Shown piece after piece: positions 2,780-6,663 of a stretch of 64,000 bases of DNA. The translations under genes were made by a program, and so were the position numbers. The DNA is taken from positions 81,874 through 145,873 of the forward strand of contig NZ_MJAH01000013.1 in the NCBI RefSeq assembly GCF_001746295.1, in the 5' to 3' direction. Source of the DNA: Streptomyces sp. LUP47B. GTDB lineage: Bacteria; Actinomycetota; Actinomycetes; Streptomycetales; Streptomycetaceae. The stretch's first letter is position 1. Each line of letters begins with the position of its first letter. The notes under the pieces are model-generated. The model had not been told where the DNA came from. It saw only the letters and a program-made list of their open reading frames with translations, and did no database searches.

Positions 2780-3247
2780 CTAACGCCCGTCGTGGCCCGA
2801 GCCCCGCTGAGCGACCAGGGCGTCGCGGATCTCCTTGAGGACCTCCAGCTCGGTCACCTCGATGATCTCGTGCGTGCCCTCCTTCGCCTTCCGGCGGGCC
2901 TCCATCCGAGCCAGGTACTTCGACATCGGCAGGACCATCAGGAAGTAGACGACGGCCGCCGTGATGAGGAAGGTGAGCGTCGCGCCGAGGACCGAGCCCC
3001 AGAGGATCCGGACCCCTTCCGCGCTGGCGCCGGTTCCTGTGCACGGGCCCTTGAGGCACGAGCTGTAACCGTCGAGGTTCTTCGTCCCGATCGTCCCCAC
3101 CAGCGGGTTGATGATTCCCTTCACCACCGAGTTGACGATGTTGGTGAAGGCGGCGCCGATGACCACCGCGACAGCCAGATCGACGACGTTCCCGCGCATC
3201 AGAAAGGCCTTGAAGCCCTCCAGGACGCTCGGCTTCTTCTCGCTCAC
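2780..3247 (-). CDS. mscL: Large-conductance mechanosensitive channel MscL
   Basis: 155 residues, typical of actinobacterial MscL. The N-terminal amphipathic helix and TM1 read GFKAFLMRGNVVDLAVAVV (about 11-29), followed by the glycine/valine-rich pore helix and a periplasmic loop containing NLDGYSSCLKG. TM2 is near residues 87-105 and a charged cytoplasmic tail ends the protein. It opens under membrane tension to release solutes on osmotic downshock. The periplasmic loop has two cysteines (CLKGPC), possibly a disulfide. Confidence 0.95.
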   Translation of the reverse strand: MSEKKPSVLEGFKAFLMRGNVVDLAVAVVIGAAFTNIVNSVVKGIINPLVGTIGTKNLDGYSSCLKGPCTGTGASAEGVRILWGSVLGATLTFLITAAVVYFLMVLPMSKYLARMEARRKAKEGTHEIIEVTELEVLKEIRDALVAQRGSGHDGR

Positions 3248-4055: not shown

Positions 4056-4889
4056 TTACGGCAGTTCGAAGCCCGGATTCATCCCGCCCAGCGCGTTCAC
4101 GCACAGGCAGTCCCGCTCCTCGTTCGAAGGCAGCGCCGCCACCGCGTCGAACAGCACGCCCCGCAGCCGGTCCACGTTCGCCGCGAACACCCGCAGCACC
4201 TCGTCGTGCGAGACACCCTCGCCGGTCTCGGCGCCCGCGTCGAGATCGGTGACCAGGGTCAACGACGTGTAGCAGAGCTCCAGTTCACGGGCGAGCGCTG
4301 CCTCGGGGTGGCCGGTCATGCCCACCACCGACCAGCCCTGGGCCTGGTGCCACACCGACTCGGCGCGGGTCGAGAACCGCGGCCCCTCGATCACGACGAG
4401 CGTGCCGCCGTCCACCGCCTCCCAGTCCCGCCCACGGGCGGCCTTCAGCGCGGCCGCCCGCCCGGTAGGGCAGTACGGGTCGGCCAGCGACACGTGCACC
4501 ACGTTCGGCTCACCGCCGCCCGGCAGCGGCAGCCCGTCGAAGTACGTTCCCACCCGGGACTTCGTACGGTCGACCAGCTGGTCCGGCACGAGCAGCGTGC
4601 CCGGGCCGTACTCGGGGCGCAGCCCGCCCACCGCGCACGGACCGAGGACCTGCCGTGCCCCCACCGACCTGAGCGCCCACAGATTGGCCCGGTAGTTGAT
4701 CCGGTGCGGCGGCAGATGGTGACCGCGCCCGTGCCGGGGCAGGAAGGCGACCCGTCGGCCGGCGACCTCGCCGAGGAAGAGGGAGTCACTGGGCGGTCCG
4801 TAGGGGGTCTCCACCTCGACCTCGGTCACGTCCTCGAGGAACGAGTAGAAGCCGGAGCCGCCGATTACGCCGATCTCTGCGTTCGCCAT
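4056..4889 (-). CDS. mtnP: S-methyl-5'-thioadenosine phosphorylase family protein
   Basis: 277-residue purine nucleoside phosphorylase (MTAP/PNP family 2). It phosphorolyses 5'-methylthioadenosine (or the inosine analogue) to the base and 5-methylthioribose-1-phosphate for methionine salvage. Visible signatures are GVIGGSGFYSF at the N-terminus, the phosphate/ribose motif LPRHGRGHHLPPHRINYRAN (about 59-78), GMTGHPEAALAREL and TDLDAG. The start MANAEIG at 4889 fits the family; an in-frame GTG lies just upstream. MTAP versus MTIP specificity cannot be decided by eye. Confidence 0.88.
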   Translation of the reverse strand: MANAEIGVIGGSGFYSFLEDVTEVEVETPYGPPSDSLFLGEVAGRRVAFLPRHGRGHHLPPHRINYRANLWALRSVGARQVLGPCAVGGLRPEYGPGTLLVPDQLVDRTKSRVGTYFDGLPLPGGGEPNVVHVSLADPYCPTGRAAALKAARGRDWEAVDGGTLVVIEGPRFSTRAESVWHQAQGWSVVGMTGHPEAALARELELCYTSLTLVTDLDAGAETGEGVSHDEVLRVFAANVDRLRGVLFDAVAALPSNEERDCLCVNALGGMNPGFELP

Positions 4890-4946
4890 GACCAGCACAG
4901 TATCCGGCCCCGGAAACCCGCGGCGGCCGGGCTCGGGAAACACCGA

Positions 4947-4976
4947 GGACCCCGCCGTCGTACGACGGCGGGGTCC
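4947..4976. terminator. 30-bp perfect palindrome between fmdB-like gene and mtnP
   Basis: Perfect dyad: the left arm GGACCCCGCCGTCGT is followed directly by its complement, with GTAC at the centre. It lies after the minus-strand stop at 4989 and before the mtnP start at 4889, so it probably terminates or attenuates the FmdB transcript. There is no T-run, as is common for Streptomyces terminators. Confidence 0.65.
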
Positions 4977-4988
4977 CGGAAGTGAGAC

Positions 4989-5327
4989 CTACGCGGCGGA
5001 GCTGCTGCTGGACGAGGAGCCCGAGCTCGACGACTTCGAGTCCGAGGAGGACGAGGAAGAAGACGAGGGCGACGAAGACGACTCGGACGACGACGAGGTG
5101 GACGTCGACGGCTTCGAGGACGACGACGCCGGGGAGCTGCTCGACGAGGAGCCGCGGCTGTCGTTGCGGTAGAAACCGGAGCCCTTGAAGACGATGCCGA
5201 CCGCGGAGAACACCTTCTTGAGGCGACCCTGGCAGTTGGGGCACTCGGTCAGAGCGTCGTCGGTGAACTTCTGCACCGCCTCGAGGCCCTCGCCGCACTC
5301 GGTGCACTGGTACTGGTAGGTGGGCAC
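4989..5327 (-). CDS. FmdB family zinc-ribbon protein with serine-rich tail
   Basis: 112 residues from GTG 5327 (VPTYQYQCTECG), preceded by a strong AGGAGG Shine-Dalgarno. Residues 1-50 form the FmdB zinc ribbon: CTECG and CPNCQ supply four metal-binding cysteines. After FKGSGFYRND the remaining 45-50 residues are almost all serine with a few Pro, Lys, Asp and Thr, a low-complexity tail likely to be disordered. FmdB proteins are named from putative regulators linked to formamidase/amidase genes; the true role is unclear. Transcription is probably under HrcA control through the CIRCE element overlapping the leader. Confidence 0.85.
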   Translation of the reverse strand: MPTYQYQCTECGEGLEAVQKFTDDALTECPNCQGRLKKVFSAVGIVFKGSGFYRNDSRGSSSSSSPASSSSKPSTSTSSSSESSSSPSSSSSSSSDSKSSSSGSSSSSSSAA

Positions 5328-5337
5328 TGTCTTCCTC

Positions 5338-5364
5338 CTGGCACTCTCACTCAATGAGTGCTAA
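5338..5364 (-). promoter_or_regulatory. CIRCE element (predicted HrcA operator)
   Basis: On the minus strand the sequence reads TTAGCACTC, nine bases, then GAGTGCCAG. The CIRCE consensus is TTAGCACTC-N9-GAGTGCTAA: the first arm is perfect, the second differs at two terminal positions, and the spacer is exactly nine. The second arm abuts the AGGAGG ribosome site of the FmdB gene, the usual CIRCE location between promoter and start codon. Confidence 0.85.
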
Positions 5365-5394
5365 CGATGGTCCATAGTGACGTATTCCCGGGGA

Positions 5395-6663
5395 TCAGTC
5401 CACTGCCACCGGCACTCGGTGACCGATGCCACGTGCGACGGTCCGGGCGCGGGGCCGCGCCACGAGGTGTGAACGCAGCGCCAGCAGCGTCGCCAGGGCG
5501 AGCAGCGTGCCCCCCATCGGCACCAGGAACCCGGCGCCGCCCCAGAAGCGGTCCTCCAGCTGTCCGGCGATCGTGACGGCGGCCGCCTGGCCGAGTGCCA
5601 CCGCGCCGGTCAGCCAGGTGAAGGCCTCGGTGCGGGCGCCTGCCGGGACCAGGCTCTCGACGAGGGTGTAGCCGGTGATCAGGGCGGGCGCGATGCACAT
5701 GCCGACCAGGAGGCCGAGGCCGGCCAGGACGAGCACCGAGTGCGCGGCCCACAGGCCGGAGGCCGTCAGCGCGAGGGCGCCGTATCCGAGGAGCAGGCGC
5801 CGCTGGGGGGCCACCTTCCAAGCGATGGCGCCGCAGACCAGGCCGGAGAGCATGTTTCCCGCGGCGAAGACGCCGTACAGGACGCCGTTCAGTCCGGGTT
5901 CGCCGATCGACTCGCTGAACGCGGCCAGCGAGACCTGCATGCCGCCGAAGACGGAACCGATGCCGAGGAACGTCACGATCAGGACCCGCACCCCGGGGAT
6001 GCGCAGTGCCGAGGCGTGCTCCACGCGTGCGTGCCCGTCGAGGGCCGTGACCGACGGCTGCGTGCTCTTCTGCGCGGCGAACAGCAGGCCGCCGAGCAGG
6101 GTCAGGGACGCCTCCGTCAGCAGGCCCGCGGCCGGGTGCACGGCGGTGCACAGCGCGGTGGCGAGCAGCGGGCCGAAGACGAAGGTCAGCTCGTCCGTGA
6201 CGGACTCGAAGGCCGCCGCCGTGGTCATCAGGGGCGAGCCCTGCAGCTTCACGCCCCAGCGGGCGCGCACCATGGGCCCGATCTGCGGCACCGAGGCACC
6301 CGTGGGCACGGCCGCCGCGAACAACGCCCACAGGGGCGCGTGCGCGAGGGCGAGGGCCGTCAGGGACAGGCCCGAAAGGGTGTGCACGAGCACGCCGGGG
6401 ATCAGCACGGCGCGCTGACCCCAGCGGTCCGCGAGACGGCCGCTGTAGGGCGCGAACAGTGCCATGGCGACACCGGTGACGGCCGCGACGGCGCCCGCCG
6501 CGCCGTACGAGCCGGTGGTGTGCTGCACGAGCAGCACGAGGGAAAGGGTGAGCATCGCGAACGGCTGGCGCGCCGCGAAGCCGGGGAGCAGGAACGTCCA
6601 GGCGCCGCGGGTACGCAGCAGCTGCCCGTATCCCGGGCGGGAGGAGGTGACCGTGGATGCCAC
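5395..6663 (-). CDS. MFS transporter
   Basis: 422-residue major facilitator with about twelve hydrophobic segments starting at AWTFLLPGFAARQPFAM. The loop signature GRLADRWGQRAVLIPG (about 74-89) matches the conserved G-x-L-a-D-r-x-G-r/q motif between TM2 and TM3. The translation starts at GTG 6663. No substrate can be inferred; neighbours are unrelated. The 200-bp leader contains small hairpins (6698-6713, six-base arms CCCCTT/AAGGGG; 6799-6815, arms CTCTGC/GCAGAG). Confidence 0.85.
   Translation of the reverse strand: MASTVTSSRPGYGQLLRTRGAWTFLLPGFAARQPFAMLTLSLVLLVQHTTGSYGAAGAVAAVTGVAMALFAPYSGRLADRWGQRAVLIPGVLVHTLSGLSLTALALAHAPLWALFAAAVPTGASVPQIGPMVRARWGVKLQGSPLMTTAAAFESVTDELTFVFGPLLATALCTAVHPAAGLLTEASLTLLGGLLFAAQKSTQPSVTALDGHARVEHASALRIPGVRVLIVTFLGIGSVFGGMQVSLAAFSESIGEPGLNGVLYGVFAAGNMLSGLVCGAIAWKVAPQRRLLLGYGALALTASGLWAAHSVLVLAGLGLLVGMCIAPALITGYTLVESLVPAGARTEAFTWLTGAVALGQAAAVTIAGQLEDRFWGGAGFLVPMGGTLLALATLLALRSHLVARPRARTVARGIGHRVPVAVD

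Follow-up and report, generated by a model that had tools for sequence, protein, structure and literature searches.

The closest described system to the locus analyzed here is ruc (Rv0991c) of Mycobacterium tuberculosis, a gene acted on by HrcA and SigH; SigR is the Streptomyces counterpart of SigH. In the available parts of its published description (Becker et al. 2020, PMC7448276), HrcA represses ruc directly and SigH activates it, the HrcA and SigH sites overlap, and a legend places a second start site 19 nt further upstream. The same text describes M. tuberculosis Ruc as heat-induced, zinc-bound, and disordered, and as a chaperone once oxidized, for which the tail is required; the cysteines mutated there are at positions 8, 11, 29, and 32. 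Ruc is argued in that text to be analogous to Hsp33, being zinc-bound when inactive and active when oxidized, but the two are dissimilar in sequence and anticorrelated in some lineages. Rv0991c is also among the HrcA-controlled genes in the accessible portions of PMC8223512 and PMC8557902. For Streptomyces, the corresponding portion of a 2009 study (PMC2687793) lists no HrcA targets other than groES/EL1 and groEL2, and the SigR promoter is given as GGAAT-N18-19-GTT in the part of PMC9205884 that was available.

The original prediction was that an FmdB zinc-ribbon gene in the present DNA would be a new HrcA target. This fails because M. tuberculosis ruc is published as being under HrcA, as the accessible text of PMC7448276, PMC8223512, and PMC8557902 states. 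The heat-shock role for the FmdB family, which it took as a fresh hint, had been anticipated by the heat induction of M. tuberculosis Ruc (available text of PMC7448276). A literature search returned no paper joining FmdB and HrcA. The S. coelicolor orthologue of the gene is, by our guess, SCO3187, which had no occurrence among the papers listed. Judged from titles and the beginnings of abstracts, and subscription papers such as the SigR-regulon reports and the Stewart 2002 array study aside, no paper on HrcA or CIRCE at ruc in Streptomyces was recognized. PMC2687793, on heat shock in S. coelicolor, contains neither FmdB nor SCO318 in its main text, and the main text of PMC2448437 contains none of the terms sought. 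On the sequence evidence below, the HrcA-ruc pairing in Streptomyces adds a new and well-supported example, from a second genus, to a circuit already known.

The features of the locus lie on the minus strand of the window (the whole 64,000-nt stretch that was analyzed) and are listed in the direction of transcription:

5374..5402, minus strand: possible housekeeping-type promoter, weak, TGGAC-N18-CACTAT, whose -35 element lies within the end of the preceding coding sequence
5384..5388, minus strand: -35 element GGAAT of a putative SigR-type promoter (match to GGAAT-N18-GTTAG; register fixed in the genus)
5363..5365, minus strand: -10 element GTT of the same putative promoter, overlapping the first two CIRCE bases
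5338..5364, minus strand: CIRCE operator (predicted HrcA site), TTAGCACTC-N9-GAGTGCCAG, 16/18 match, conserved in 58/58 genus orthologues
5334..5339, minus strand: ribosome-binding site AGGAGG, read from the sequence
4989..5327, minus strand: ruc-type FmdB zinc-ribbon gene, GTG start (5327), 112 aa, PF09723 and TIGR02605
4943..4979, minus strand: hairpin downstream of the stop codon, probably a terminator (-35.7 kcal/mol, z -4.22)

Two family models recognize the product: Zn_ribbon_8 (PF09723, E 4.3e-15) and the one for FmdB (TIGR02605, E 1e-20). Its N-terminal zinc ribbon, CxxC-N17-CxxC, places cysteines at C8, C11, C29, and C32, and these were kept in 137 of 138 sampled ruc loci. The low-complexity C-terminal tail is 54 aa long with 40 Ser; across the genus, the median Ruc tail is 52 residues long, and the median Ser content is 59%. 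The Ser-rich tail of Streptomyces Ruc may be disordered, to judge by its composition. By sequence, the gene at 4989-5327 is the Streptomyces orthologue of ruc (Rv0991c), and through this orthology a redox-chaperone function is probable. The M. tuberculosis and Streptomyces proteins have in common the zinc ribbon with cysteines 8, 11, 29, and 32 and a hydrophilic tail, which in Streptomyces may be disordered. Compared with the published M. tuberculosis description, the Streptomyces locus differs in its very Ser-rich tail and in an operator that is fused to the ribosome site. The same-strand neighbors downstream are presumably a methylthioadenosine phosphorylase (4056-4943) and an MscL channel (2780-3247), judged by resemblance. 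The hairpin at 4943-4979 is probably a terminator that leaves ruc monocistronic, whereas the M. tuberculosis gene belongs to an rv0991c-rv0990c operon in the accessible text of PMC8557902.

The original prediction of a CIRCE at 5338-5364 was confirmed by the sequence and by a pattern scan. The minus strand reads TTAGCACTCATTGAGTGAGAGTGCCAG, two 9-bp arms separated by a spacer of exactly 9 bp, and 16 of the 18 arm positions agree with the consensus TTAGCACTC-N9-GAGTGCTAA. This is the sole match in the window at ≤3 mismatches, and no dinucleotide shuffle of the window out of 100 contained one. At the same threshold, the genome (10,998,901 bases) has five CIRCE sites against one for the reversed-pattern control. 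Two of the remaining four precede groES and two precede groEL2, identities that were assigned by reading the translations. The genome also encodes HrcA (PF01628, E 7.8e-59, G000:C12), and none of the five sites lies on the contig that carries hrcA. CIRCE also adjoins hrcA itself in some other families (G400, G141, G191). The groES-groEL1 and groEL2 loci, which the available text of PMC2687793 describes in Streptomyces, thus show the same dyad in the same genome as ruc, presumably read by the same repressor. The claimed overlap of the dyad with the leader of the FmdB gene is also borne out, because AGGAGG (5334-5339) and the right arm share two bases, the first two of the former being the last two of the latter. 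This fusion is also visible in upstream sequences across the genus.

Searched at the protein level, 58 of 61 genus genomes have ruc; of the three without it, two are 79% and 82% complete and the third (G032) 99%. A scan of Streptomyces FmdB upstream regions for CIRCE, set beforehand as a test, found the operator rather than its absence: a 16/18 site precedes ruc in all 58 orthologues, starting 35-39 nt upstream of the start codon. All 18 arm positions are invariant across these loci and the spacer is variable, and a control stretch downstream scored ≤12. Each of the 61 genomes has 2-5 CIRCE sites at ≤2 mismatches, and the reversed-pattern controls gave 0 throughout. Within the spacer (5347-5355), GAGTG is conserved in the genus (L006-L063), each base in 49-56 of 58 loci. 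It makes an inner overlapping dyad, GCACTC-N3-GAGTG, which the groES and groEL2 sites lack. CIRCE as a general property of all FmdB proteins is unsupported, since it is absent from the two distant FmdB paralogues found in the genus (L064, L065; score 9). With the operator present in 58/58 genus orthologues, HrcA control of this FmdB zinc-ribbon gene, as originally proposed, is very likely.

A SigR-type promoter, which the original prediction had overlooked, runs into this operator. Its -10 element GTT starts one base ahead of CIRCE and hence overlaps it. GGAAT-N18-GTT occurs in fixed register at 55/58 genus loci, and at 56/58 when N18-19 is allowed; the exceptions to the register are L006 (GTAAT), L010 (upstream region rearranged), and L050 (spacer 19). 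Shuffled genus upstream regions contained the motif in at most 2/58, a comparison among related sequences that are not independent, and several positions of the 18-bp spacer vary across the genus. The genome has four copies of the longer form GGAAT-N18-GTTAG, against one for the reversed control, and encodes a SigR/SigH-type sigma factor (E 9.0e-108, above the cut-off). Motif and spacing are as in the S. coelicolor SigR regulon (available text of PMC9205884). The groES and groEL2 loci differ from ruc, which has one CIRCE plus the SigR-type promoter, in having two CIRCE each and no GGAAY-N18/19-GTT on the coding strand within the 3 kb examined per locus. When named genomes were scanned blind for the combination of SigR motif and CIRCE, at least 118 stretches matched. 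Among the matches listed, 107/118 lie within 150 nt upstream of a ruc gene, and the genera named for such sites at ruc include Streptomyces, Kitasatospora, Streptacidiphilus, Mangrovactinospora, Amycolatopsis, Mycobacterium, Mycolicibacterium, and Mycolicibacter. The 11 listed matches away from ruc include three that precede an HrcA-like frame (L163, L246, L255) and one that precedes a GroES-like frame (L200), by reading. SigR control of this ruc gene is likely.

We are fairly confident of a reading in which 5338-5364 is an HrcA operator and heat (through HrcA) and thiol oxidation (through SigR) converge on the redox chaperone Ruc. In unstressed cells, HrcA bound to CIRCE would cover the -10 and start region and keep transcription off. 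Heat would inactivate HrcA and derepress ruc alongside groES-groEL1 and groEL2. Under thiol oxidation, the anti-sigma factor would free SigR, allowing transcription from GGAAT-N18-GTT; because the -10 element runs into the operator, SigR polymerase and HrcA would compete for the same DNA. Zinc held by its four cysteines would go with an inactive Ruc, and oxidation of these cysteines would turn it into a holdase that passes clients to DnaK. HrcA binding, sigma competition, and redox chaperone activity are carried over to Streptomyces from the M. tuberculosis work, and the exact ruc start sites in Streptomyces are predicted ones. For M. tuberculosis ruc, the accessible text of PMC7448276 reports HrcA and SigH control, heat induction, and a redox chaperone, and the Streptomyces counterparts of these are those that the sequence suggests.

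Outside the genus, 58 loci of the class were read from 131 genomes with matches. CIRCE at ≥14/18 precedes ruc in 43/58 of them and in one or more loci of 28/34 families. For other classes, in a non-random sample, the figures are 7/22 loci and 5/17 families. With 15/58 class loci and 15/22 loci of other classes lacking the site, CIRCE at ruc as a universal feature of the phylum is rejected. In families other than that of the genus, the distance from the beginning of the dyad to the start codon ranges from 37 to 122 nt. In many families the left arm at the ruc operator has CAGTC in place of CACTC, always the same break in symmetry (L088, L109, L112-L116, L118, L119, L129, L134, L136-L138, L144, L145), and at L124 extra CIRCE-like copies stand in tandem upstream of ruc.

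HrcA is present in 146/148 class genomes. Since CIRCE is nonetheless missing at many ruc loci, the link between HrcA and ruc is lost or absent in several families. Among the loci read, CIRCE at ruc is missing in families f8, f68, f84, f88, f89, and f92, and in families f5 and f7 two of three ruc loci each lack it. Loss of HrcA can explain the missing sites at most partly, as genomes such as G264, G288, G295, and G391 have full-length HrcA matches and CIRCE elsewhere. By per-genome counts, most genomes without the site at ruc carry CIRCE elsewhere; for two of them, G315 and G347, the number of sites is not above the reversed-pattern control. In the small g193 genomes (family f84) the HrcA match is confined to the C-terminal end of the profile.

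These wider comparisons bear on a simpler explanation, that HrcA alone controls ruc from a housekeeping promoter and the SigR-like motif is incidental. Among the 43 class loci with CIRCE, only 11 have GGAAY-N18/19-GTT within 150 nt, and in only six of them does GTT begin 1-3 nt ahead of CIRCE, with one more at 7 nt. Elsewhere, the bases just before CIRCE resemble a housekeeping -10 element: in other families the five bases there often look like its start, which the first T of CIRCE completes. At 50 non-genus sites, the first of these positions is C or T in 45, the second A in 36, and the fifth A in 24. The fuller pattern TGGAC-N16-19-[CT]AnnnT occurs at 10/43 class loci with CIRCE (shuffles ≤2), nine of them ending on the first T of CIRCE, and at 0/15 class loci without CIRCE and 0/22 loci of other classes. 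Within the genus, TGGAC-N18-CACTAT is present at 57/58 loci against ≤3 in shuffles, a comparison from which coding constraint and relatedness were not removed. This pair sits about 10 bases further upstream than that of other families, and coding constraint may explain its conservation. Housekeeping control with HrcA alone is nevertheless unlikely, as the SigR motif keeps its register at 55/58 genus loci despite variable spacer positions (shuffles ≤2). Mycobacteria show the same arrangement, with SigH control of ruc published in the accessible text of PMC7448276; in four family-f3 loci of mycobacterial look GTT starts three bases before CIRCE, and in two more f3 loci one base before.

Another alternative is that the dyad acts chiefly at the RNA level, where a leader hairpin next to the ribosome site would govern translation or stability. 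Its two-base overlap with AGGAGG fits such a role and a 6-bp stem could form. The leader is no more stable than its shuffles (z -0.47), a SigR start would be expected to cut off part of the left arm, and the varying distance of the dyad from the start codon in other families (37 to 122 nt) also argues against it, which leaves this explanation very improbable. A chance or relict sequence, to which the two positions off the consensus might point, has practically no probability left: it is excluded because the dyad is conserved in 58/58 orthologues with every arm position invariant while the spacer varies, and 0/100 window shuffles match.

Convergence of HrcA and SigR on Ruc remains the preferred reading for Streptomyces. 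We consider it about evenly balanced whether the association of HrcA with ruc is ancient in the actinobacterial phylum, with an operator that stays fixed while the sigma factor changes. On that view, a housekeeping-like -10 adjoins CIRCE in many families, a SigR/SigH promoter reaches into CIRCE in relatives of Streptomyces, in Amycolatopsis, and in mycobacteria, and ruc would be the only CIRCE gene of this genome also wired to thiol-oxidative stress. If true, the dual wiring of ruc would suit a chaperone that is switched on by oxidation, and the locus may be a natural case of a repressor site retained while sigma factors change. A gene labeled merely as an FmdB zinc ribbon gains, by orthology, a probable function. 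The HrcA/SigH-Ruc circuit would not be peculiar to mycobacteria, and strong sequence evidence extends it from a pathogen handled under containment to Streptomyces, where testing is easy.
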